Origin: Ulva prolifera
Lineage: Eukaryota > Chlorophyta > Ulvophyceae > Ulvales > Ulvaceae
Direction of reading: 5' to 3'
DNA length: 64,000 nt
Assembly (NCBI GenBank): GCA_023078555.1
Contig: CM041197.1
Coordinates: forward strand, 9,606,552 to 9,670,551
Shown here: in pieces, positions 13,801-63,200 of the stretch
Position numbering within the stretch: position 1 is the stretch's first letter
Layout: every line of letters starts with the position of its first letter
The notes under the pieces: model-generated
What the model saw: only the letters and a program-made list of their open reading frames with translations
What the model was told of the DNA's origin: nothing
The model's database searches: none
Made by a program: the position numbers and the translations under genes

Positions 13801-14891
13801 GCCATGCATGCCGCCGACGCCGGCTCGGCGGCTGGGAAGGCTGACGGCAAGACCGCCGCGCAGCAGGCGGAGGCGGCCGTGAAGTCCGCGGCCAACACCG
13901 CGAAAAAGCTCGGCGGGTACCTCACGCCGGTGGAGTTTGTCGCGGGCGAGGTGCTGCATGACTTTGGGGACCCCGCGGATAGCATCGTGCTCGTGATGGG
14001 GGGCTCCCTGGTGAGCGTGTTGGACTTCCTGACCGGCACCGAGTGCGCCCCCTCTATACAGAGTTACGCCGGTCGGCCGGACTCTGTCCCTTTGTTGGCC
14101 GGACACTGTGCCATCGTGGCGCCTGTGCTGCAGCAGAAAGCTAGCGCTCCTGAAAGAGGCCCATGCACACAATTCCTACACTAGACTGCATCCGTTTCAT
14201 TGATGCGGCAACCACTGACTGTGCGCACCACATCGGTTTACCCGTTCCGCATGTGGTCCCGTCTATTCGAAATTGTCAATGCCCTCTTCAGGATTCGGCT
14301 AGGTGAATCCAGATTCACTTTACATCACTTTAAAAAACAAAAGAAAAACACTTTACAATATGCGCTGGGCAACAGCCGTTTGGCGCCGTTGCATCCTCGC
14401 AGAGGGTTGCCTCCGCGGCGGGTGTGGTGGGCACCTCTGTGCAAGCATTTGAAGGCGTCCGCTTGTCCTGCAGAGTGCCAGCACCGGAGGTGTTCGAAGG
14501 CCAGGAAGGGGACGTCACGCCGCGGCGCTCCCCAAGCAGCCCCGGCGGCCGGGCCGCACTGCCACAGAGCGAGGCGGGCACGCCGGTGCCGGACACCTGG
14601 GCGGCGACGATGCCCAACGCGCACGGCAAGGTTCGGCTAGCGCAGGCCGGGCCCGGCTCCGTGCTCGGCGCGCTGGACTTTACGTTGCGGCGGCCGCGCT
14701 CGAGCCAGTGCCTTGCAGTGACGGACGGCTCGGCGCTGGTGCTGAGCCGGGAGAAGTTTGCGCGCATGGCGTCGGCGGATCCACATGCGTACAGCCTGCT
14801 GCAGCAGATCATGCTGCGGTCGTCACTGCTGACCACGGCAACTACACAGCAGGCAATGGAGCGGGCGGTGCAGTGTGCATTCCCAGGGTAA
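7863..14891 (+). CDS. SulP (SLC26-like) transporter with STAS and cyclic-nucleotide-binding domains, Vsb1/YGR125w type
   Basis: Multi-exon membrane transporter. Exons placed by splice motifs and phase: 7863-7998, 8259-8512, a low-complexity exon from about 9154 to 9632, 9822-10126, 10502-10910, 11334-11565, 11816-12102, 12552-12735, 13073-13509, 13735-14010, and a last exon from about 14472 to the stop at 14889-14891. The joins around 8512-9154 and 14010-14472 are unresolved. Membrane exons carry SSLPFAIGQVQDLGLIFL, YIPLPVVAGYLGYLGY and, across an intron, GGPG-SIIFSQSVLA. These are the signatures of the fungal/algal YGR125w branch rather than plant sulfate permeases. The exon at 13073 encodes a STAS domain (FLLLDLRAVVGIDATTASSF). 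The exon at 13735 begins a cNMP-binding beta-roll (GEVLHDFGDPADSIVLVMGG), continued after 14472 (PGSVLGALDFTL). Yeast Vsb1 is linked to vacuolar basic amino-acid storage; substrate here is unknown. Confidence 0.85.
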
Positions 14892-15750
14892 CTGTCGGCG
14901 TGCGTATGTGGGGCGCAGATGGACCAGAGGTCATCCAGCGTTGTCTGTACCGGTGAAGGTGCACAGGTCCAAGGTGACTAAGTCTGAGTGAAGATGCAGA
15001 GACGACTGGCAGCCTTTGCCAAAGCTTTGAACAACTTTGGAACATGTGGTTAAGGTGCATGGGATGTCGGTAGGGGTGTCCGGTGACGTTGAGCACCCTC
15101 CTGTCCAATAAACGTCACCATTGAATGTAATGAACCTAAATCGATGATCCGACACACTAGCACAGCAGCAAGCCTGTTATGGCACATTGTCCTGACTGGG
15201 TACCGATAATCTTCATGTGTACAAAGCCATGATCAAGCCACTCCTTCTATACCAGGATCTTTATTTGTGTCGCCTTTCAAGTGTTTGAATGTGCAACGTC
15301 ATCGATTTGCGGAAGGTGTGGGATGACTACTCCTGTGTGAATGTCTTGTTTAGGCATGAATGAATTGGGCTGTTCTATTCACATGTTCGAGGCCCCCAGT
15401 CATGGCTATCAGTTGGGGCTTGGACAGCACTGTGTTCTGAAAGACATCTGCATAAGCTCGGTGCTGTTGTGAGCAGAGGGTTTCATTACCTAGCAAAGCA
15501 CACCACAATGATAGCCTATCATCGTAGTAAATTGTGACTGTATGCCTGTTATTAGCACACTGTGTGCATGCATGCCATCAATATTGCATTGTTGATTGAC
15601 ACAATGTCAGCCAGACCTCTGCAACGGAATCAGGAAGCAAAATAACCAGCCGGCATTGTCACAGTAATGGGCCATTCAACATTGTCAACAGCTCGCCATT
15701 AGCTGCTAGAAAAGAACGCAAAGCTGACCTTTCTATGTCACAAAACAACT
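14892..15750. other. Intergenic region between convergent genes
   Basis: No ORF is supported. The sequence is visibly less GC-rich than the SulP exons. It should hold the 3' ends of the convergent SulP and centrin genes. Confidence 0.6.
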
Positions 15751-16834
<1,084 letters not shown>

Positions 16835-18131
16835 GTTCAGTCCATGTGCGGCCTCCCCCGCGAGCAATTCGACTATCATCAAAACATCGCCACATGAACA
16901 CCCTTCGCCCAAAAGACAGCTAAAAGCTCACCATTGTGTAATAATCTGAGGAATATGGAGCTGTTGAACCTGGGTGTCAATCACACCAACAGATAGAATG
17001 TACCGGCGCGAGATAACAGTGCGGGGTATGTCTCAAAGGTTGGGTGTTGCAGACATGACCTATGTGAGACGGTAATATACTGTGGCTGTGATGAGGCGTG
17101 GGTGGTCTGGTCGTTCTGTTCAGCTTGACCACATTGACACAATTCAAAAAATGCCCCCACGCCACATACGAGCAACCGCGGCATCTGATGTGTCGAGCTC
17201 GTTTACATCGACCCTTCTCGATACGTCAAGCCGAAGTGGAGCCCGCAGGTGGCATGTATATCGGCTTGCTGTGATACAGCCCATATGCCGGTAGTGATCG
17301 GGATTCCCCAGGCATGCTTTTTGGGTTCGGAGCAGTACCAGGAGGCAACAAAGCGCACTTGGCTGCTTTCAAAGGCTGCCACTGGACGATCGCTTCAGAG
17401 AAATCCAACGATTGTTTCAATGTATAAGCACTCTTAGCATCATATCAGTGAAACCTCTTGCTGGTACGTGGCAGCTGTTCGCCAGACACCGGGCATCACA
17501 GCAGCCTCGCTCGAGATCAGAACTCGAGCAAAGAATTGCCACACAAGGACGAGGAGTTTTCAGAAATACATATATCACATTAGGATGCCGAAGCATTTTA
17601 CGTACAGTTGTGAGATCGATGTATTGACATGAGGTGCTCATCCCGGCCAAACTCTGCACTCTTGTATTTCCACGAAAAAAAAGTGGCAGCATATTGCAAT
17701 GTGACTGTATTCCTATGATGGGACAGAATGCGAGTTCCGAGTCGACATCACACCGTCTCCAGAGATTTGCGCGGGGGGATAGACAGTTGAAGCCCTGTCT
17801 ATGCGTGACTCCTTGAGAACTTAGCCAAAGATTCGGCAGCTACTCTGTCTTTGCTGGTCAGGCGTGCCCAATTGAAGATGCGCAGCTCTTTCATGGCCAA
17901 CGATGTAGCTTTGCACACTGCTGCATGCACACCGTTTCACTGTGCATCAGGACCATAGCAAGATGATGTTGCACCCATTTCTTTACCGATGGCACTATAG
18001 CTAGAAAATAAGGCATGGAGATCCACATGGACAACGACACTATCGTGTGCGAAGGCAGAGCATTTGGATATTGGCGCAACCAGATATGTCGGGCGCCTGC
18101 TCCCTATGGCTCCAACATATATGCTTACAGT
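16835..18131. other. Intergenic region, no gene recognised
   Basis: Moderate-GC sequence with only short ORFs (under 95 codons) on both strands and no recognisable motif. Likely holds the centrin promoter and the 3' flank of the next minus-strand gene. Confidence 0.5.
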
Positions 18132-20816
18132 CTATGCCATCTTTTTGCCAACGGCGTTCAGCCCTGCAGCTAGAGCTGCCAGCGGTGCAATGCAGGCAAT
18201 CTCATTGCATTTGACAGGCGTGTTGACACGTCGTAATCTCACCTTGGCAGCCATGTCATACCAACTCTGGCCATGATTCCACACATCTAGGCCAGGCAGT
18301 AATTTACCCTTCAAACACTCACTGCTGACATGTCTCCTAAGTGCATTTTCTGGCATTTCATCATCTCAATGGCATGGCCATCCAGGAAATTTGTAAACCA
18401 AGAAACGCCCTCACATGCAATTGCATCTTGCTTAGTACTAGTAATGAAAAAGTATGGCTCAGGATCCATGGTGTCCGACTAACAAGCTACTGCGCCGAGG
18501 TGGTTGGGCGAATATCTATACGAAGGTATGTCGACTTCTTGCCCTCATTCTCCAACTCTATAAATTTGGGAGTGCACAGAACATCCAGGTCGTCTGCCTG
18601 CATCGCAACTTTCTGTGCTGCAGCATGACAGATCAACTAGATGCACATCCAATTGTGCTGGAGAAAGAGCCCGGCTACCAATGAGAGCATGGATGCGGAT
18701 CCACATACAAATACGTCGCCAGGAAGCTCACACGAACTCTGTCATGACAAAACATCCCAAAGAAGAGTACAGCCAAAGACATCCACACCTCAAGAAACAT
18801 GCGCGCATGGCATATTGCACTGAGTGCATTCGCGACGGCTTCAGCGCCATGTGCAAGAAGGTATACGGGCTCCTTCTCACGCACACGGCCGGCAATGGCA
18901 CCAGCGAGTTTCTGTCTTTCCGTTTGCTCCTTGACTGGGAATTCTGCCTGCACAGATCAGCTGTATGTACCAGTGGCCCACCGCTTGAATGTGTACAACA
19001 CACACAACAGGCAACCCATTAGTAACGAATGTGCACAAGAGATGCAAAACCCTAGACATGAAGGCTCGCGAGGACAGCTCTGCGTGGGATGCTGGCCTGT
19101 CCACTCTTGTGTCCAGAACACATCAACAGATTCAAAAGAGCCATGTCCGCTGGTACAAGCTGATGCACTCTGCCGTGGTGAACATCAGATGAGCAGATCC
19201 AATAACAATTGGATGAAGCAGTATCCCATCTAGCGACTAATAGAGGTACAGTCGCTAGATGGGATACTGCTTCATCCAATCAATGGCTAGACCGTTCCAC
19301 AGGCATCAGAATAAGTACTGCTATCTGCATACAGCAGTGAGCACCAGAAGACAGCATGGTTGCGCACTGCGTCAACATCTTGATCCAATCTGTTGCCGTT
19401 CTTTGAGGTAAGGTAGAGCGCCAACGCACTATCATTCATTCTGCATGCACGCGGTCCAATCTGACTGCAGACTGTGGAGTTGCCGAGTCAGCTTTCGCCG
19501 GGCCAGCTTGGCATCCGCAACCAACAGTGCGGCTTGCCATCCAATGTGTCACCACCCCCAGCTCGCTTTGCTCACTTGTGATCTGGCTGAGTTCACCAAG
19601 CCAGCCTGGCGGCTTCTCATTTGAACATCCTTCGGCCCAACGCTGGGAACAATTATGGAACGGAGGTAGCTCAAATGCATGTGAAGGGGGCATGAGGATG
19701 AGGTGGAAGATGAGGCAATGCGACTGGAGGAAGGTGAACTGGTGGACATGAACCAGCGAGTCTGCACATGCAGAGCGTGGGACTTGCCACAGCTGGACTG
19801 AGGTGGGGAGTGGCCATTCCTGCTGGTGCTGGCTGGTGTCACAGCGGTGTGACAAGGCTTGTGCAAGACTCATGCCAAAGGTGGTCCCTCCTACCCGCAG
19901 CCTTGACATATCGAATTGCAACAACCGTGCCCAGAAAGTAGATCACGAAGCCTCTGCAGATGCTCGTAGCAGAGTAGCTTGGACACAATTGGCAATGTAG
20001 GCCGCTCGGCCATATTCCACCAAGAGTGGATCGGGTCAGGGCAGAAGCTCGGGCAGATCTCGCATGTTTGACTCTCGTGGCTGGTACACTCACACGGAGC
20101 GGTGGCACATCCCCTGCCCCAGAAGCGGTGCAGCAAGAGAGTGATCAGCAGAGTGCTGAAGAGCGCTTCAAATCAACTGACAAAACAGTGTGCCAGCACC
20201 AGCCTGCGCTCCTTGAGCTTTGGCCCTCTCCCCAGAGCCTCTGGGACTGATTCGCATTCTCCAAGCATGCCATGCTATACAAGGATCCGTCTTGAAGAGG
20301 AGGTGGCAGGAGGACGATTGGGGTGGGTGGACTGGGAAGGTGGAATATGGAACAAAGGCACGATTGCTGGTGTGCACCGAAAACGCCACCACTTCCAGGA
20401 GAGCTGCCTAGGCAAATGCAAATGCCTGGGGCGCGACTCTGTGAAAATGGCAAACGTACATCAGGATGCGCAATATAGGATTTAAAGAGGAGCACCCTTC
20501 GCGAAATGCTGGCTGGCAAAGTATGTCTTTGTCATCTCCGGCCAAGAATTTCCTCGCAACAGCAATTGCCTGCACAGTGTGTGATGTCATCGTTTCCCAA
20601 ACAAGTAAAACACCAGATGGAATCCTTTGATACATCACCACCCTCACGAGTAGCTGCACCCATTACAATCTCACCTTGACGGCCAAGTTTATTGACGGTG
20701 CACCAATGGTCAAGACTGTAGGTACGCTGTCATCCCTGCGTATGCAATGTGCAAGTTTTCCCGCCACAGCTTTGATGCTACTTTGCCCAGACACCTTCAC
20801 ATGTTCTACATCATCC
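18132..20816 (-). CDS. Tandem SpoVS-like (Alba-fold) domain protein, multi-exon
   Basis: At least two, probably three, copies of the bacterial stage V sporulation protein S fold are encoded by small minus-strand exons. Copy 1: exon 20675-20816 (EHVKVSGQSSIKAVAGKLAH, then VLTIGAPSINLAVK) splices in phase to 20569 and down (AIAVARKFLAGDDKDILCQP). Copy 2: a start at about 19900 (MSRLRVGGTTFGMSLAQAL), then exon 18804-18951 (LAGAIAGRVREKEPVYLLAH, GAEAVANALSAICHARMFLE), then an exon at about 18500-18595 (LDVLCTPKFIELENEGKKST, YLRIDIRP). A third, partial copy may be the terminal ORF ending at 18132 (AACIA-like segment, ALAAGLNAVGKKMA). Each copy follows the family order: K/L-V-strand, SVAGAxA helix, AIGAxAVNQAVKAIAIAR, then DLxCxPxF and a G-x-x-x-T strand. 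Full exon set and start are unresolved. Function unknown; the fold suggests nucleic-acid binding. Confidence 0.6.
19208..19280. repeat. Perfect 31-bp inverted repeat inside the SpoVS-repeat gene
   Basis: Arms 19208-19238 and 19250-19280 are perfectly complementary (left arm starts attggatgaagcagtatccc) around an 11-base loop. The position falls between putative exons of the minus-strand SpoVS-like gene. It differs in sequence from the hairpin at 3867-3971. Confidence 0.92.
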
Positions 20817-23800
20817 CTGCATTCAAGGTCGCGTGTCGAGGAAACGTCCTGTCCTGCCAAGAGCAGCAGCACTGCAGCTGGTCGCACGTTTCTGGTTCAG
20901 ACTCTGGCCTGGATGATCTGCCTGAACGTTGATGTTGAGAATCGTGTTTTCCATAAGGCTCTCTTCTTCTCGACAGTCGACCTTCCTGCCGAGGAACACG
21001 GCCTCCGGAAGACATTTGATCACGCCGCGAGAGCGTGTCAACAGGAACGGGGAGCACTTGAGACAACGCGCTCTAGATCACCCCACCTGAATTTACTTGA
21101 CGCAAGTTGCAGCAATTATGCAGGCAGTATATCCATGTTGGCGAGGGCCTTTGCAGTGAATGGACGAAACGATACCTGCTGTGTGTGGAATGAAACGCCC
21201 TACAGCCAGAAACAGCAATCGAATGACCGTGGCTACAATCAATTCGGCGTCTTCGATAACGAACGAGCGTGGTGGTGCTTATGACAGCCGTGCGCGCTAA
21301 TGTGCAGAGCATTGCCAGGCTAGATCCATCATACGGTCCTTTGTTGCAAGATACTGTAAATGAAACATAACGTGGTGCCCGAGTGCCTTTTTGTAGACGT
21401 GATTTTGTTGACGCCGGTTCCCGGGGGACAGCGCTCGGTGTGAATCCGCAGGACACCTCATCAAGTGAACACCGCGCATGGCACAGCAGGCGTCGTGTCC
21501 CACATCCCGAGGGCTGTGCATGAAATCTCAGCTGGTCGTAGGTACGTCATGACAACGCGCCGCTCCGTCATCATCACACAGTACTGCCCCTCATGCATTG
21601 CTGGATGCATCCAGCAACGGCGCCTCCACTGCACTACCTACCAACGTTGGCCAATGGGTGTCTTTGCAAAGCATGCACATTATGATAGTGGCAACCATAG
21701 TATGTGTGATCATCTCAAGTGGCAGCACTAATCCACAGCTGGTGTACACGTACGTGCTGCGAGCAGGCCTCTGTCCACTGCCCCTCCGCATAGCGCATCG
21801 CATTTGTCCGTTGACTTCGAGGGACGCGGACATCTTTCACTGCCGAAACTTCTGTGCCTATGTCTGGTGTCGACGCCTAGGATGACGAGCTTCCCAGTAT
21901 AGCGGACGCAGTATAGCTAGCTCGACATATTCCCACCAACAAGCAATTCCAAAAGATTTAAATGGCTCTTCTTGAAGAACTGTTTGGTGGAGGTGCGCTC
22001 GTAGCCCTGCAATGGTGGTGGGATCGACACAAGCTTGCCTAGCTCTGGGTTCGCCGTGTCTCATGCTGAAGCTTGCCAACGAATTATAGAGCAGTCGAAT
22101 CTGCCAATAGCAGAAACAGGATGGTTGGAGCTGTGGCCATCAGGACTGCACACCCACACGGTAACCTGATTTTCTCGACTGCCGAGATCGAGGACACCCG
22201 CTTGCGTTGCTCTCCTGGCACTACTCATTCGGCACGAAAGCCGCAAGCAGCTGGCTGTAGCTAGCTCTGAATCACACGAGTCCGCACGTCTTGATCGTTC
22301 ATGTACATGTACCTCTGAAAAGGACAGCGTGCACACGCATGGGCGGTAGGGCATTCGTCTCGCGTTGTCGTGTTTTTTTCGGGATGCCAGCGGATAAGCT
22401 GGCGCCAGAGCCCCCAGCTGCTGCGGCAGATTTTGGCGAGGCTTCCTCTCCACGCGAAGCACGCTCTGTCGTCAGATTTCAGTAGTTATGTTCCTGTCGT
22501 GCATTCCATGTGCTGTAACGAATCCGGTCTTCTGTTACGGCCGCGTGCACAGCCTGACAGCACATGCAGCAGCCAGTCCCATGGCGGACGACAAGTTTAA
22601 GCTACCGTCCGGACCGGCCGTGAACGACCACTCGTCGCACGTCTCGAAACGCTCAAGTCCAGTCAACACTCCTGTCCATATTCTTGATGTCCTGTGCCGG
22701 CGACGGGGTAACCTTCCCGCTGAATGCACACTAATCCGCCCGCCTTGCTTAGTGTCGATCTGAACTGCGCTTGCATATACTTTGCTGGGCATGCATATTT
22801 CTGCGGACGAAGAGTAATTGAGCCCGTGGAGTGCGAGAACAGTGGGCCTAAAGTTTGTCAAGCGCTGTTCTGGAATGGCCAGACGTGCCGACTGTGCACC
22901 GGGCAAACGTCTTCGAGCGCCACAGCGAGGCCGCAGGTCTGACCATGCCATCGGCGGTGCGGGCGGCCTGCTGGGCCACTGGGGTGCGCTAATACTCCCA
23001 CTCGGCACTTATGAAGCTTCTGATTCCGTCGGTTTGCGTGTTGCGAGTGAAAGTGTACCAGCTAAGTGCAACTGGGACGCTCTGAAAACGTTGCCAGCGG
23101 CGTAGGCGCTGCCAGCCTTGACTCTCTACGAGCTCCATGTGGCATTATATCTCGATGAGCCCTCTCAGTTTCGATGTGGTGCACTTTCGTAGGCTCGCCG
23201 CGACGGGAACCTCGCGTGACAATGCAATGCATTCCAAAGCGTGGCAGCCATGTAGGCCCAGTGGGCGCACCCCGCCCCGTTGACCTAAGAATTAAGCCAA
23301 TCCCTGCTATGTATGTAAGAGGTGGCGTGGTTTGCGGATCAGCTCTAAACAAAACGTTTGTGCGCGGCTCCATGCTGGCACTTCGAAATGTCGCCTTTCA
23401 TACATGCCTTCCATAGCGCGCACGCGATACACCATGCGACATAAGCTATGCAGAGCTCATTCTGGTTTAGTGCGACTGGGCTGAAACGTTGCTTGCGGTG
23501 CTATCTGCCTCTCTGACTCTATCCTGGTAGCATAATGGCATGCGACCCCACCGATGTAGCGCATCGTGCTGCACCAACACCTTGTACACTGACGTATCAG
23601 AAAGCATTCCAGGACAGCATCATGCCGGTCCTCGATCTCCATTAATCCAGCTTTGTTGAGCTCACAGTGCACCCGCTACAGTGCAGCAGGAAAGGGCCAG
23701 TGTTTGCCTGTGTAGCCTACTCAGCTGTTCATGTCCACATATCAGCTACTAGGGTTCAGTGAACCTTTCTCAAGGCAGTTACGCCAGATCTGGTGTCAGG

Positions 23801-24193
23801 TAGGCTGCTCAAGTGTACGGTGCAAGTATGCATGCTTCGGGTGATGCCAGCCCGCGGGCCACTGCATGTCACAACACCCCACCACGTGTACAGTGCATGG
23901 TATCGCAATAAACATCACTTGATCTGAAGACCCGCACAACACACTGTCCACAAACACCACGGTCCGCTCAGCTCAGCGCAGGTTCCCCTGGATCACTATC
24001 CTCGGTATGACTACTCTACCAGCCGTACTCCTCGATTAGAACAACATAGCTAGCCCACCATCCCACCACAGCCAGAGGTAAACTGATCCCCACACAAACG
24101 GCCGACGGCAGTCAACCCGGCAATCATCTTGCATGCGCTCCACCCTCCCACACCTCCCCTACGCAGCCTCCCACCTTCCAAGCAGCAGGAACC
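20817..24193. other. Large region without a recognised gene
   Basis: About 3.4 kb of moderate-GC sequence. Its proximal part probably contains 5' exons and the promoter of the SpoVS-like gene. ORFs at 22535-23008 (-, 157 codons) and 22488-22763 (+) overlap antiparallel, and neither shows known motifs. A short ATG-to-stop frame at 21961-22041 (+), 26 codons, has a tidy start and stop but no support. Confidence 0.4.
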
Positions 24194-24378
24194 ATGCAGC
24201 CCCATCAGCCCCATCGCGCGTGGGCCACGTCATCGATCAGCCAGCAGCCGCAAGACCGCATGTCACCCCGGTACCTCCCACTCGGTGGCACACCGGTGCC
24301 TGCCTGCCTGCGGCAATCTGCGATTCTACCCCCCGCTCTGCCTCCCGCTCAGCATGCTGCCCCTCCCTCACCCCCGAC

Positions 24379-24404
24379 CCCCCCCCCCCCCCCCCCCCCC
24401 CCCC
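24379..24404 (+). repeat. Homopolymer C tract (26 C)
   Basis: An uninterrupted C run lies upstream of the first placed GMC exon, in a pyrimidine-rich stretch. It is probably in an intron or the 5' UTR of the GMC gene. Confidence 0.95.
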
Positions 24405-24720
24405 TCCCCCCGCACTCTCTCCACCCGCATCCCGTGTCCACTCAGGCAATGCCTGCTGAGCCACCAATAGCCGAGACGCGAGTGGCGTTGGTGGACAGCG
24501 GTACCTCTGTGATGTTCTGTATGGGCAGCTGCCGGTCGGCCGCGCAGCTCCTGCGGAGATACCTGCCTCCTCGACATCCTCCCGGTGCTGCACACACCCG
24601 GTGTGTGGTCCAGATCATCTGGAGCCGCCAACGCCCTCTCGCGCGTGCCCTGTTTTGCGGCCGAGTAAACCTAGACCCACTTGACTGGACACGCGCCTGA
24701 GGCGCCGCCGTGGCATGCAG

Positions 24721-27142
24721 GTGGGGGGCTGCCGGCGCTGTCGGCGCCGGGGCTCGCGCGCCTATGGGCGCTGCTCTTCCTGTCCTCCCTCGTCCTCCTC
24801 CTGTGCGCACGCGCCGCGCGGGCGGACACCGGCGGCATCGAGGTGGAGACCGCCGACTTTGTGATCGTCGGCGGCGGCACCGCGGGCTGCGTGATTGCCG
24901 CGCGGCTGTGTCAGCGCTTCGGCGACGCGAGCATCCTGCTGCTGGAGCGGGGGCAGGAGCGCAACCAGACTGAGGAGGAAAGCGTGCGCGCGGTGCGGGC
25001 TCCCAGCTCCCGCCTTCCTCTCCTGAACGCATGCACGCAAAATGCGCTGGGTGGTTGCCTACAACGTGTGTTGCGGGGCACTGTTGCGGGGCATTGCTTT
25101 CGTTAGGACGGTGTGTATGCATGGAAGGCCGTGCCTAGTAGATCGCTGGCCAGCATTCCCTGCAGCTGTCCCCCGTACTGCAACCATGCACGCTATGCAT
25201 GGTGTTCCGGCCAGCAACATCCGCACTGTAATTGACGTCACGCTGACCGCCTGAAATCCCTTGAAAGTCTGCAGTCGAATCTGGTACAACTATGGGGTAC
25301 CGCCGCGAATGGCGTTTGGCGGCCGTGGCCAGTGGCCGAAGTGCACTTCGGCCGAGGCCACGTACGCATGCAGGGCAGTGCTGTGTGCAGTGTCTGGCCT
25401 CTGCCAGGAGGCTGTGTCAACTGGCTGATTGCATGTGGTGGCATGTACCAGATCCCATGTATGGTGTAGGTTACACATGATTATGTGTGCCAAACTGGAG
25501 TCCCTGCATGCATGCAGCTGCCAGTGTTCCTGCAACTGCTGTCCTGCATGCCTGGCATGTCTAATACAGCATACTTGTCACAGCATGTCTGTTACAGCTT
25601 GCTTGGCTCATCTCGCATGCTGACACTACTGGTGTCGCATGCATGGACCGTCCCCAGTGAATCTGACAGAGACAGCGTACGCAATGACAAACATTCCGGG
25701 GTGCTTCTGTGTGCTGATAATGAACACCGTGGGCAGCTCGTCTGGATCATGTTGCTGGTGTACATGTTGGCTGATGTTTGTTCAGGCCGCGTGTAACAGA
25801 CGGTGCACAATGTGGGCATTGCACCGCCTCGCCTCGCAGTCCAGTTCCATCAGCACCGCCTCAAACGCCGAACAGTCCCATGTCCAGGCACTTTAATGCA
25901 GCCTATCGACACTACCCCTGGGGCAAACTCCCCCCCCCCCCCCCCCCCCCCCCCCACCCCCCCCCCCCCCACGCACAACACCAGCTCCCAGCAGCGCAAC
26001 ACCGGCATACTCGCATTCCTACCCGCCTGCAAGGCACCGAAATACATCTCCTTCGCCCCTGCCCACCCCGGGTTTTGTGTGCTGTTTCATGTGCTGCTCT
26101 GCCATCCAATACGTCCAGCACCTTTCCGCTGCGTTATGGGCTGCTCACAGTCATCGCTGCTTTATGTCGTGTATGGCTCTCACATGACGGCCAAGGTTGT
26201 TTCTGTGCTGACGTCCGCAGGCGGATGGCATGCGACTGCGCACCCACGCATGCAGCACTCGCGTGTCCGCCGCGTGTCCGCCGCTTGCGCTCAGGGTGTC
26301 GGGGTGTGTGCAGATGCGGCGGGCGTTTGACACGTGGCTGAACCCTAACCTCGCGGAGGTGTGGCTGAGTGCACCCAACGCGGGCCTGGGCGGCCGCGCC
26401 GAGCCGATCATCACCGGCCGCACCCTCGGCGGCACCAGCGCCATCAACGCCGGCCAGTGGACGGTGCCGGGCCTGCGCGACGTCGAGGCCTGGGGCTTTG
26501 ACGGTGCGCCCTCATGCGCCCCTGCCTGCCTGCCAGTTCTGGGTTGCCTGTGCCCCTGCTCTATGCTCCGGCGATAGACGAATCACAGACGCGCGGGCCT
26601 TTGCATGGCAGAGCACCAAAGCACAAGGCAAGGCTATGCGAAACGAAATGTGGTATCCAGTAACTCTTGCAGTCATCTGCTCATCCTCAACCCAGGCGCT
26701 TTGGGCCGGACGCTGGTGATGCCTGCATATCAGGGCGACGGCGGCCGCCGCGATGCGGTCTTGCTCACTGCAGCCTCATGCATGCAGGCCTGAACGTGCG
26801 CACCGCGGGGCTATACTACGCCCGCGCGCAGTCCAAGCTCAAGGTCAGGCAGCCGCCGCCGCCGCTGCGGCACCAGACGTTTGTGCCGTGGCTGAACCAG
26901 GCTCCGGGCGCGGGCCTAGACACCTCGCGCTCGCCCGCGACACGCTTCGACACGAAGAACCGCGACCGCGCCGCGATCAACGCCGTCGCCGCGCTGCCGA
27001 ACGGCCGCCGCCAGGACTCGTGCACCGCGTACCTCTCGCCCGTGCTCAAGGGCTCCTGCAAGAAGAACCTCCGCCTGGAGCAGTCGGCGGTGACGACGCA
27101 GATCCTCGTGAGAGGCACGACGGCGGTCGGCGTCCGCTACAG

Positions 27143-27183
<41 letters not shown>

Positions 27184-28889
27184 ACCCCAACTGCCCTGCG
27201 GCAGAGTTCGACGTTTGAGGGATGCTGTAGATTTGGGATCTGCGTCGGCGGCCTGCTCTGCAATGGCCTGTGCCTGTTCTTGGTGTGTTCTTCCCTCCTG
27301 CTCCACATGCACGTGATCCGGTGACAGTCCTGAACTGACGGTCATCGGTTCGCGCTCTGGCAGCCTCATCCACGAGCGCCGCCACCACAGGCGCCGTTTA
27401 CTGAGGCGACTCAGCGTGGCAATGACTCAGCGTGCGGTGCAGGAAATACGACGAGGATGGAGTGGGGTTCGTGGAGCGGCTGGTGCAGACGCGGCGCGAG
27501 GTCATCAGCTGCGCCGGCCCATACGGCTCCCCCAACCTGCTGCAGCTGTCCGGCATCGGCCCGCGTGCCGTGCTGCGCCGCGCCGGCGTGCCGGTCCTGA
27601 TGGATCTCCCCGTCGGCACCTCCGTCCAGGTGTGAACGCACCGCCTCAGCAGCAGTGTTGGGTCGCTTTACAGCATTTTCAGGGCTGCCACCCAAAAAAC
27701 AGCCCTGGATATTCGGAATTGTTCTATGTCATCTGGCCCGATGACCCAACACTGCTCAGCAGGCCCGTGCTCCGGCACTTTGCCATGTCGTTTTGTTCCG
27801 TCTCCGCAATGGCGTGAGCTCTCGTGGTGACTTCCTCGTTTTGATGTGTGTAGCGTGTACATGCGTGACACGGTGTTGTGCACGGTGCCGCTCGTGTTTG
27901 TGTATACAACTTGTGTATGCGGCGCCGCTCACGCCTGGGGCGCATGCATGCAGGGCCGCCCGGTCGGTCGCATCGTCGACGTGTACACGACCGTGCCCCT
28001 CGCTCCCGAAAACGACCCTGCCCTCGTATTCTCCAAAAAGGCACAGAAGAAGTTTAACAAGGGCAAGGGCGGCGTCCTCGGCACCGCGATCACGTCAATC
28101 AACGGTGTCCTCATCTCTGAGGATGCGCTCGTCGCCGGCACCGCCGCGACGCCCTCCGACGTCATCGGCCAGCCTCTCTTCCTTCTCACCTGCCTCCTCA
28201 ACCCGACCTCCCGCGGCTCCCTGACGCTGTCACCGGACGCGCCCTCCCGCCCCCTCACCCCCCCGGACGTCACCCTCAACCTCCTCGGCACCGAGGGCGA
28301 GGCCGCAACGATGACGCGCTGCCTCGAGCGCCTCGGCGGCGTGAACGACCGCGTGCGCGCCGCCGGCGACCTCGGGCTCGTGAACATTGACCCCGGCCCA
28401 GGGGGCATCAACCGCACGTACATCGAGCGCACGACGACGGACTCGTACCACTTTGTCGGCGGCTGCGGAGTCGGGTCGGTCGTGGACGGGCGGTACCGCG
28501 TGCGCGGCGTCGGCGGGCTGCGCGTCGTCGACGCGTCCGTCATCCCAGAGATCCCGCGGTACGCCGGCGTGATGGCAACGGTGTACGCGCTCGCGGAACA
28601 CGCCTCGGAGCTCATCATCGCAGACGCGGGCCGCTACGGCTCGGACTACGACTCGGAGTCGGACAGCGGCAGCGACAGCAGCAGCGAGAGCAGCTGCGGC
28701 AGCGGGAGTGACTGTGAGGATGATGTGGCGGAGCTGCCGCTTTTTTACGAGGAGGCGGTGGACGGGAAGGTGACGCGGGGGTTCACCGCGCTGATACAGG
28801 ACAACGGGAGTGACAACGGCAGTGGGAGCGACGAGGAGCTGATTGAGTACGATGATTTGCAGATCCAGCCGTATCTGCTTGAGTTGTAG
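24721..28889 (+). CDS. GMC-family FAD-dependent oxidoreductase, N-terminus incomplete
   Basis: Glucose-methanol-choline oxidoreductase, of the group containing plant mandelonitrile lyase/HOTHEAD-like proteins. Exons in phase: 24721-24992, 26314-26503, 26788-27142, 27443-27629, 27954-28889 (about 646 codons). An upstream exon ending in phase 1 is needed and was not placed. The first exon has a hydrophobic leader (LWALLFLSSLVLLLCARA) and the FAD-binding motif VIVGGGTAGCVIAARL. The second has GRTLGGTSAINAG. The fourth has the GMC signature GPYGSPNLLQLSGIGP. The last exon carries the C-terminal catalytic region (YHFVGGCGVG, GLRVVDASVIPEIP, VYALAEHASELI), then a Ser/Asp-rich acidic tail. The first catalytic His is present; the position of the second is Gly (AGVMATVYALAE against the usual H/N). 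Substrate is unknown. The leader suggests secretory-pathway entry or membrane anchoring. Confidence 0.85.
25324..25362. repeat. Inverted repeat in the first GMC intron
   Basis: A perfect 20-bp palindrome at 25334-25353 (ggccgaagtgcacttcggcc) is flanked by further pairing of cgtggc (25324 side) with gccacg (25362 side). Located in the 1.3-kb intron 24993-26313. Confidence 0.9.
25930..25970 (+). repeat. Homopolymer C tract (about 40 C, one A)
   Basis: C run interrupted once, at 25956, in the large GMC intron. Same sense-strand polarity as the gene. Confidence 0.95.
27146..27183 (+). repeat. 38-base C tract immediately after a 5' splice site
   Basis: The exon ends at 27142 and the intron begins gtg followed directly by 38 C. 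It is one of several C runs placed just downstream of donors in this window. Confidence 0.95.
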
Positions 28890-60286: not shown

Positions 60287-63200
60287 ATGGTGCGCTCTCG
60301 ACAGCTTTGAGCGTCCGCGACAATCACAATTGGAAAACTATGTGAATGCATACCTGGCATCGTGAGGTGATCGCGTGGCATGTTTTTCCTTGTAGCAAGC
60401 AGCCGTCATGCAAAGTCCACCAAGCGAGCCAGCCAGTGCAGGATTCACGATTCTGGGGTCCCGGCAGCGACAGTGATGACGATTCTGAAGAGGAGGAGGT
60501 AACTTCCTCTGAGGAGGGATCAGAAGTCAGTGACTCGGACTCTGACAGCTCCGACGACGAAAATGCCGCCGGGTGCGTGATCGCTGCACTGAGCAAAATG
60601 CTCTGATCATGGGTACAGCCCCATTCAACCGCATGATAAACTGGCTGCAGGCGCTTTCTTGCCGGTTCGGACTCCTCAGATGAGGAGCAAGACAGGCGAG
60701 TGGTCAAGTCAGCGAAAGACAAGCGGTTCGAGGAACTGGCCAAATCCTGTGACGAGATGAGGGTATGCATTTCAGACTGCTCTAGCTGGTCTCGGATGCG
60801 CGGGCTTGTGCTGATTTTTATGGCAAGCTAGACTGTTACATGAATCCACCAGCTGGCCTCCCAACTGGGTCCAGGCCCGACCGCTTCAACACCAGTCTGC
60901 CGTGCAGAATAAAATCAAGGTTAATGACTGGACATCCATCCAGACTGTGTTTGACAAGATGCAAAAGCAGCTGGAGAAGGCCATGAAGACCGCAAATCTG
61001 ACAGCAGTGCCCCGCCTGTACATCAAGATGCTCTGCGAGCTTGAGGACAGCCTCAACGAGACCCTTGCCAACAAGGAGGTCAAGAAGAAGATGAGCAGCA
61101 CCAACGCCAAGGCCCTCAACACCATGAAGCAGCGGCTGAGAAAGCTGCTGCCCGAGTATGGTGAGTCCATGGCCAAGTGGCGTGAGGATCCTGTTGACAC
61201 TGAGGACGAGGAGGAGAGCGAAGAAGAGAGCGAAGAGGAGGACGAGGAAGGTGGTGATGGAGAAGCTGAGGATGAAGCCCTCCGCAGGTGCTTTCTCATG
61301 CAGGCTGCAACCGATCCAGCCACCTGAAACCCTCCAGCTGCCTGCCAGGTGATTCGCAGAAGGCAACACAAATATCGATGATCCCACAGCCTTCTGCATG
61401 TCTAGAAACTCTGAGCTACTGGCCAAGCACAACGCTGCAGGCCACCGTTCCTGGGACACCCATGCCTGTGGTCGACAAGGCTTGTTCGCCACAGTCAATA
61501 CACAGCCACGCTGCAATCCGTCCGATTTCCCGCCGAACCAAGGCCAAGCCACAGCAGCAGGGGTCAGTCGTAGCTGCAGCAGGTTGTATGCTGCCCTGAC
61601 ACGTAGCTGCAGTGCTGGACCGGGCTCGGGCTTCGGGGCGGAGTTCACAAAATGCCACGTGCAAGGCAAGACCGGCCAGAGCTGTCCCTGCAGGCAGGAC
61701 AAGAAGAAGGACGAGCTGCTGTCGATGGACCCCGAGAAGATCACGTACGAGATCGTGTCGGACAAGCAGCGCGCGATCGCGCAGGCGCGAGGCAAGCGCG
61801 GCACCGACCGCTACGACCAGCTCGAGATGCTGCAGTTCCTGGCCAAGGTGTCCAAGGGGCCCGTGCAAGAGATCGAGGTGCGCAGCCGCCACCGTGCCCA
61901 TGTTGCTACCCCCAGCCCCTCTTCTCGTTCTCCCCCGGGGTGTACATGGCGTAGGGATACATGCCCGGAACATTGCCTCGGTCGTGTGGCCGGTGAGATG
62001 CTGACACGGAAGTTTCGAACCGTGAGGCATGCCTCAGAGAAACGCTGTCGTGGTATCACAGATATACTTTACTTCACTCCATAACCTGTACCTCAGCAGC
62101 GTTCCGGTGAGGTCAGAGGCAAAGGGCAGCACATTCGAGGCCCGCAATATCTTTGTAACACCCGTAGAGTACAGCCTGAGCAAAACACATCTCAGTGTAC
62201 CTCCATCTTTGCTTGGCAGCAGCCGTGGTGTCAGCGCACTCACGGCGCGCCGAGCCGCGCGCCCCTGCATCGCCATGCGCCGTCATCCCTCCGCCTGGAC
62301 CTCCCTGGCGGCGTGCAGGTGCTGATGCAGTACGTGTCGACGCTGTTCGACCTCAGCGCGAACCTCAACACGAGCATCCCGGTGCACGTGTGGCAGCGCG
62401 CGGCGCGGGGCCTCTTCACCATCCTCGACCGCCTCGACGCCAACACGCACATCGTCCTCGACGAGACGCTCGAGGTCACGCCGGAGCGTTCCGAGGAGCC
62501 GTCCCCGGCGGAGTCTGTTCGCATCGCCGGCAACCTGCGCGCCTTCGTCGAGCGCCTCGACGACGAGTTCTTCAAGATCCTGCAGGTGTGCCAGCCGAGC
62601 CCCCAATTCCGCGGCGTGGTTCATCGGGCCTGCTTCTCGGGCGTGAGGCAGGTGGTGCCTGTGCTGTGCACATGTGTAGCATGGCCTGGGCTGACCGGCG
62701 CCATGCGGCTGGTGATGCGCGCTTGGGTTCCACACCCGGCTGTGCTTTTTTTCAAGTCACCACATGCATGGTTGGCATGCATGTGGTGCAGTAGGTGTGC
62801 AGCACAGCCCTGCATGGCAGGCGCGGTCACGGCGGGTGTGTGCAGCTGACGGACTCCCACACGACGGAGTACATCCAGCGGCTGCGGGAGGAGCCGGTGC
62901 TGCTGGCGCTGACGTCCAAGGCCGGCGCGTACCTGCGCCGCATCGGTGACACCCGCAATCTCGCGTTCCTCGCGCTGCGGGAGACCGAGCACTTCTACTA
63001 CAAGACGGAGTCGGTGTACGCGGCGATGTGCGCGCACATCGAGGCCGCGAAGGCCGCGCCCGACGGCGCCGTGCCGCAGCCGCCGGCCGACAGCACCACC
63101 GGCGGCGAGCCGGCCGAGGGTGAGGAGGGTGAGGTGTTCACGGAGCCGATCAAGCTGCAGATCCCCAAGGTGCGTGCTGTGTGCTGTGGCGTACGCGGCG

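Follow-up and report, generated by a model that had tools for sequence, protein, structure and literature searches.

The 64,000-nucleotide stretch of Ulva prolifera DNA analysed here (the window) contains a six-exon SpoVS locus. It is a genuine gene of a green alga, its small product has two SpoVS domains, and within its algal family, which is uncharacterised, it is an ordinary member. What is new is a connection, at the level of the family, between tandem-SpoVS proteins and mRNA-export adaptors. The N-terminal tails of algal relatives resemble that of ALY/REF, and this sequence likeness suggests that the family handles nuclear RNA.

In the predicted splice model, the gene runs on the minus strand from 21015 to 18487 and comprises six exons, five introns, and 228 codons followed by a TAG stop (Table 1). 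From 5' to 3' of the gene, the introns measure 71, 105, 1055, 420, and 191 bases; all five begin with GT and end with AG, and their removal restores a single conserved frame. The initial annotation had described small minus-strand exons encoding parts of SpoVS between 18132 and 20816. The SpoVS exons were recovered, but the borders of that range were not: exon 1 lies outside it, and exon 2 begins at 20816. Exon 1 was absent from that annotation, as was the fact that many green algae and haptophytes have this architecture in common. The Ulva mutabilis protein P0001 begins similarly to exon 1, and a stop is present in frame upstream of this exon. Exon 4 was recognised via the Ulva mutabilis protein (MNDSALALYLT versus MSDRSLALYLT), and residues 180-226, which include exon 6, are 60% identical to it. 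An intron of the gene contains an inverted repeat (19208-19280) whose 31-base arms match perfectly around an 11-base loop; a genome-wide search found no further copy of it.

Table 1. Features of the tandem-SpoVS gene in the window, listed from 5' to 3' of the gene; bit scores are for Pfam SpoVS.
Feature	Position	Strand	Description
Exon 1	20888..21015	-	ATG at 21015; basic arginine-rich tail; donor GTGCGA; from the spliced model
Exon 2	20675..20816	-	Remainder of the tail and beginning of SpoVS domain 1, which starts at ~20800; ORF 20663-20896, 26.6 bits
Exon 3	20496..20569	-	Middle of SpoVS domain 1, AIAVARKFLAGDDKDILCQPAFREG; ORF 20408-20662, 26.5 bits
Intron 3	19441..20495	-	1055 bases, the longest of the five; GTGCTCCT...GCGTGCATGCAG
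Exon 4	19368..19440	-	Final strand of domain 1 (to ~19392) and linker; from the spliced model
Exon 5	18789..18947	-	Initial two thirds of SpoVS domain 2; ORF 18675-18956, 41.9 bits
Exon 6	18487..18597	-	Last part of SpoVS domain 2, then the TAG stop (18489-18487); ORF 18487-18636, 16.3 bits alone

A Pfam search of the spliced protein found two SpoVS stretches (PF04232; E 1.1e-37, 128.1 bits). Three separate minus-strand ORFs exceed the curated cut-off of 24 bits, and a fourth gives a weaker match (Table 1). This profile search on the translated exons, set beforehand, bore out the view that SpoVS domains stand in tandem within an intron-bearing eukaryotic gene; at E<=1 only SpoVS was matched, and neither Alba nor RRM. 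The recurring motifs noted earlier are present as corresponding motifs in both domains: 'SIKAVAGKLAH', 'SINLAVKAIAVARKFL', and 'DKDILCQPAF' in domain 1, and 'KLAGAIAGRVR', 'VANALSAICHARMFL', and 'DLDVLCTPKF' in domain 2. A third copy, which had been claimed as well, was discarded for 18132-18486: the ORFs at 18132-18365 and 18311-18478 gave no SpoVS match at E<=10 and lie past the TAG stop. A classical SpoVS is a single domain of ~86-90 aa; with 228 aa and two domains, the window protein is therefore called a tandem-SpoVS protein. It belongs to both the SpoVS fold and the Alba fold, in keeping with the Alba-type (nucleic-acid-binding) fold class first proposed, and the fold matches of the SpoVS pair include RNA-binding Alba proteins. 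A single-sequence structure prediction (mean pLDDT 67.6) was set aside.

We searched the 88.9-Mb genome (44 contigs) with the SpoVS profile and with the Ulva mutabilis protein. The matches fell in three and five places, respectively, all of them inside this gene, and neither query found a second SpoVS locus.

In the surroundings of the gene, an EF-hand gene (PF13499 and others; 15843-16505, minus strand) comes next downstream; its product presumably resembles centrin. Elsewhere in the window, exons match 3-dehydroquinate synthase II (PF01959; 45927-46838, minus strand, E 2.2e-18), which we take to be an archaeal-type enzyme and hence unusual in an alga, the N-terminus of eIF3c (62085-62846, plus strand, E 1.7e-16), and the C-terminal domain of GMC oxidoreductases (27831-28886, plus strand, E 3.2e-19). 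GC content falls to 50-55% near the SpoVS and EF-hand genes (14000-24000) and is 55-69% across most of the remainder.

Joined into one query, the exon peptides matched a protein of 226 aa from Ulva mutabilis (P0001; 63% identical over 99% of the query) and a fragment of 92 aa. P0001, the nearest relative found, has two SpoVS domains and the same end point; it is 68% identical to an early draft of the window protein, and 71% identical over 177 alignment columns. With the Ulva mutabilis protein as query, Botryococcus braunii and metagenomic sequences were matched as well. A profile search then matched 267 proteins at E<=1; the best 120 of these, from which the spread of the family was read, include the named green algae Sanguina, Pleodorina, Dunaliella, Trebouxia, Myrmecia, Botryococcus, and Ulva, and the named haptophytes Phaeocystis and Prymnesium. 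All 80 aligned proteins, chosen from 123, match Pfam SpoVS, and each of the ten inspected singly, the window protein among them, has two SpoVS stretches. In annotation, the family is labelled solely 'stage V sporulation protein S'. A literature search that took in few of the subscription journals found no paper that treats what SpoVS does in eukaryotes; PMC8119650 was discarded as a source, because the protein it mentions is stage V sporulation protein K, a different one.

To place the two domains, we calculated a tree of 96 rows and 89 columns from 58 domains of 29 eukaryotic proteins, 30 bacterial domains, and 8 phage domains; it came from a quick search, contains four long rows, and carries a warning of long branches meeting. 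Every first domain fell on one side of a branch, with an SH-aLRT support of 99, and every second domain did likewise, with a support of 95. The copies are thus strongly diverged and their duplication is old, as the initial annotation had held. With one clade for all first domains and one for all second domains, the simplest reading of this tree is a single duplication that preceded the split of the green-algal and haptophyte proteins, or preceded a transfer between them. The introns hold no record of the duplication, since the domains are interrupted at different points: in domain 1 or at its end, after residue 90 and in codon 115; in domain 2, after residue 192. An exon-by-exon duplication was rejected, as these positions do not correspond.

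A phylogeny with bacterial SpoVS, the check proposed in the initial annotation, thus resolved the two copies from each other; it did not resolve a donor group. The bacteria and phages formed one side of a branch with a support of only 21, and no donor was prominent among them. Acquisition from bacteria, also claimed there, is plausible from these sequences; with a branch support of 21, the donor, and even the direction of transfer, can be proposed only tentatively. The two-domain alignment served as query in scans of bacterial genomes and of viral contigs, from which we considered the best 80 of at least 548 and the best 80 of at least 527 confirmed loci, respectively. Among these best-scoring matches to a two-domain query, none of the 161 matching ORFs (160 loci) had two domains. 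One Firmicutes MAG contains two adjacent, separate single-domain SpoVS genes (L008, 3049-3591), possibly a pre-fusion arrangement. A viral origin was rejected, as all 80 fetched phage-like loci are single-domain. In a fold search of the viral library, a phage SpoVS ranked first; the giant-virus rows were weak (E>=0.0016, rmsd 17-24) and were given no weight. Viral contigs commonly carry SpoVS genes, with at least 527 confirmed matches in one scan (L088-L167 among them).

In the phylogeny of two-domain proteins, the window protein and its Ulva mutabilis relative form a pair (97) within a clade of 34 rows (100) that contains all seven named green-algal genera. The remaining 47 rows, including both named haptophytes, make up the opposite side (100). 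A separate observation is a motif-free clade of 12 rows on a long branch (100), consisting of P0088, P0090, P0091, P0095, P0098, P0099, P0104, P0106, P0112, P0113, P0118, and P0122.

The window protein has a tail of 48 residues ahead of domain 1; its first 46 aa include nine arginines and one lysine (pI 9.93). The tails of relatives have starts such as MSGVDMSLDDLINK, followed by RG-rich sequence and then RSAPYARP. The order is that of ALYREF, in which a UAP56-binding motif is followed by an arginine-rich RNA-binding stretch and PYSRP. When one 70-residue tail was searched against the PDB, the two top matches were to RNA and export factor binding protein 2 (ALYREF2, the ALYREF paralogue), with E-values of 0.32 and 0.41. 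A profile of 13 tails again placed entries of this protein on top (E 0.0031 and 0.0035), followed by an unrelated DUF4201 protein (8glv_F4, 0.033) and THO complex subunit 4 (THOC4, 0.049); as a sequence match to ALYREF2, this is modestly significant. With a profile of six tails, the E-values for ALYREF2 entries were 4.7e-6 and 5.6e-6, and a reversed control of six tails, five of them shared with that profile, had no ALY match in the PDB.

The 80 proteins were chosen after their tails had been viewed, with fragments and some near-duplicates left out, so that the following motif fractions describe the set and not nature: a strict SLDD-type motif occurs in 26 of the 70 tails that are 30 aa or longer, always starting within the first ten residues (shuffled tails average 0.0), a PYxR-type box in 44 of the 70 (1.6 in shuffles), and a broader SLDD-type pattern, sought in the first 25 residues of 71 tails including that of the window protein, in 39. 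The broader motif is present in 36 of 43 tails from the haptophyte-type clade and in three of 28 from the clade with the green algae, the three being Trebouxia, a Trebouxia-like contig, and Myrmecia. It is missing in Ulva mutabilis, Botryococcus, and the chlorophycean-type members. The motif thus occurs in both branches of the family's deepest division, which favours an ancestral motif that was later lost. These sequences suggest that it is old and was lost in Ulva mutabilis, the window's species, and the chlorophycean-type members; separate gains are possible.

Neither an N-terminal UAP56-binding motif nor a WxHD motif was found in the window protein, the former having been sought in its tail. 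A 'REPYGK' box at residues 18-23 fits a loose pattern, one with about 1.6 matches per 70 shuffled tails. An upstream exon carrying the UAP56-binding motif was considered and rejected: along the minus strand from 20880 to 25500 (~4.6 kb), the sole match was a weak one, CSLDEVS at 21468, which had no other support, and the loose pattern that it fits has three matches in the six frames of the entire window.

We also looked in the same genome for a canonical ALY. A strict DNA pattern gave no matches, and a looser one gave ten, against 15 for the reversed control; the subset of the ten that was inspected, those with a long frame spanning their middle, had surroundings unlike ALY. An approximate plant ALY RRM, used as query, had eight generic RRM-like matches at E<=0.01, the best at 31% identity; by this weak test, the genome showed no clear RRM-type ALY. 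One locus (L168, C7:530808-531065) encodes an RGG-rich stretch with FoP_duplication (PF13865, 39.5 bits), a domain known from CHTOP and ALY C-termini; a motif scan of 9.9 kb around and upstream of it had no match.

According to passages in PMC7614608 and PMC5095910, ALYREF contacts UAP56 solely through such motifs, its main RNA-binding sites are the flanking arginine-rich stretches, and UIF and LUZP4 were identified as adaptors by the same UAP56-binding motif. The haptophyte-type proteins, with that motif and arginine-rich stretches, therefore resemble ALY/REF adaptors. We tentatively favour, at somewhat less than an even chance, the reading that the tandem-SpoVS family is an RNA-binding adaptor of nuclear mRNPs that acts like ALY/REF. 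The window protein consists of a flexible arginine-rich tail and two SpoVS (Alba-fold) domains. In members with a full tail, a short N-terminal helix (the SLDDII motif) would dock on UAP56/DDX39, a helicase; RNA would be held by the RG-rich stretch together with the SpoVS pair, and the mRNP would be passed on to the export machinery. RNA binding, helicase binding, and export are all inferred for tandem-SpoVS proteins; since the window protein has no SLDD motif, an ALY/REF-like role of that protein itself can only be inferred. As the docking motif was not found in it, it probably retains the RNA-binding half, and would enter mRNPs by another route or have a general mRNP role. It is rather unlikely, if conceivable, that the family constitutes a second, independent kind of ALY/REF adaptor, with a duplicated bacterial-type SpoVS behind an ALY-type tail, in haptophytes and ancestral green algae, where it would take over the RNA-adaptor work of the RRM protein. 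In some species, the tandem-SpoVS protein may substitute for the RRM-type ALY.

Against the ALY/REF reading stand the absence of an RRM, the lack of the motif in the window protein, in Botryococcus, and in the 12-row clade, the acidic tail of Pleodorina (one basic versus eight acidic residues), and the 25 of 28 tailed proteins in the clade with the green algae that have no motif. This last fraction also speaks for a serious though doubtful alternative, an RNA-binding protein of general function in the cytoplasm or an organelle, which like other Alba proteins would serve in mRNA storage or translation. Its tail would resemble ALY only where a lineage recruited it to export, and the green-algal proteins would have no tie to export. 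Trypanosoma Alba proteins are described in a passage of PMC3141063 as cytoplasmic, RNA-binding, and active in translation. Chlamydomonas Cre06.g258850, annotated 'Stage V sporulation protein S', is entered in a table of PMC8320531 among carbon-concentrating-mechanism genes whose change in the gun4 mutant exceeds 8-fold; this suggests that the gene is regulated and has no housekeeping use. The motifs of Trebouxia and Myrmecia, across the deepest split, argue instead for ancestry and loss. Improbable, by comparison, is a protein-interaction scaffold with no nucleic-acid binding, the SpoVS pair serving as a built-in dimer for a partner protein: PDB entry 9a7h, as described, is an integrative YunD-SpoVS model from cross-linking data, and bacterial SpoVS function is called not established in part of PMC3141063, whereas most tailed members of the family have basic RG-rich tails and there are fold matches to RNA-binding Alba proteins. 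That the locus is a gene-prediction artefact of unrelated pieces or a pseudogene is scarcely credible: the exons are short, intron 3 spans 1 kb, and the model is a predicted one, but the five introns yield one frame that matches Ulva mutabilis end to end, without internal stop and with the 12 positions invariant across 80 relatives readable in it.

If the adaptor reading is true, SpoVS, a widespread bacterial protein with no established molecular job, would be shown able to hold RNA, and the RRM of a core export factor would be exchangeable for another fold. A green-algal and haptophyte family now labelled just 'sporulation protein' would gain a directly testable role.

The closest known proteins are the algal tandem-SpoVS proteins, Ulva mutabilis UM055_0035 and Chlamydomonas Cre06.g258850 (the latter known here by annotation alone); with its two domains, its basic tail, and the end point of P0001, the window protein does not differ from them in any essential way. 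Bacterial and phage SpoVS (PF04232) are single-domain among the matches listed, whereas the window protein has two domains. Unlike Alba, Rpp20/Rpp25, and Pop6/Pop7, it carries tandem copies in one chain and has no Pfam Alba match. ALY/REF (ALYREF, Yra1) differs from the window protein in having the N-terminal motif and a central RRM, and no second, C-terminal motif was seen in the tandem-SpoVS proteins. The haptophyte-type and some trebouxiophycean relatives nevertheless share with ALY/REF the SLDD-type motif and the RG-rich stretch, and the haptophyte-type relatives the PYxR box too, in the order of ALY; where ALY has its RRM, the family has the SpoVS pair.
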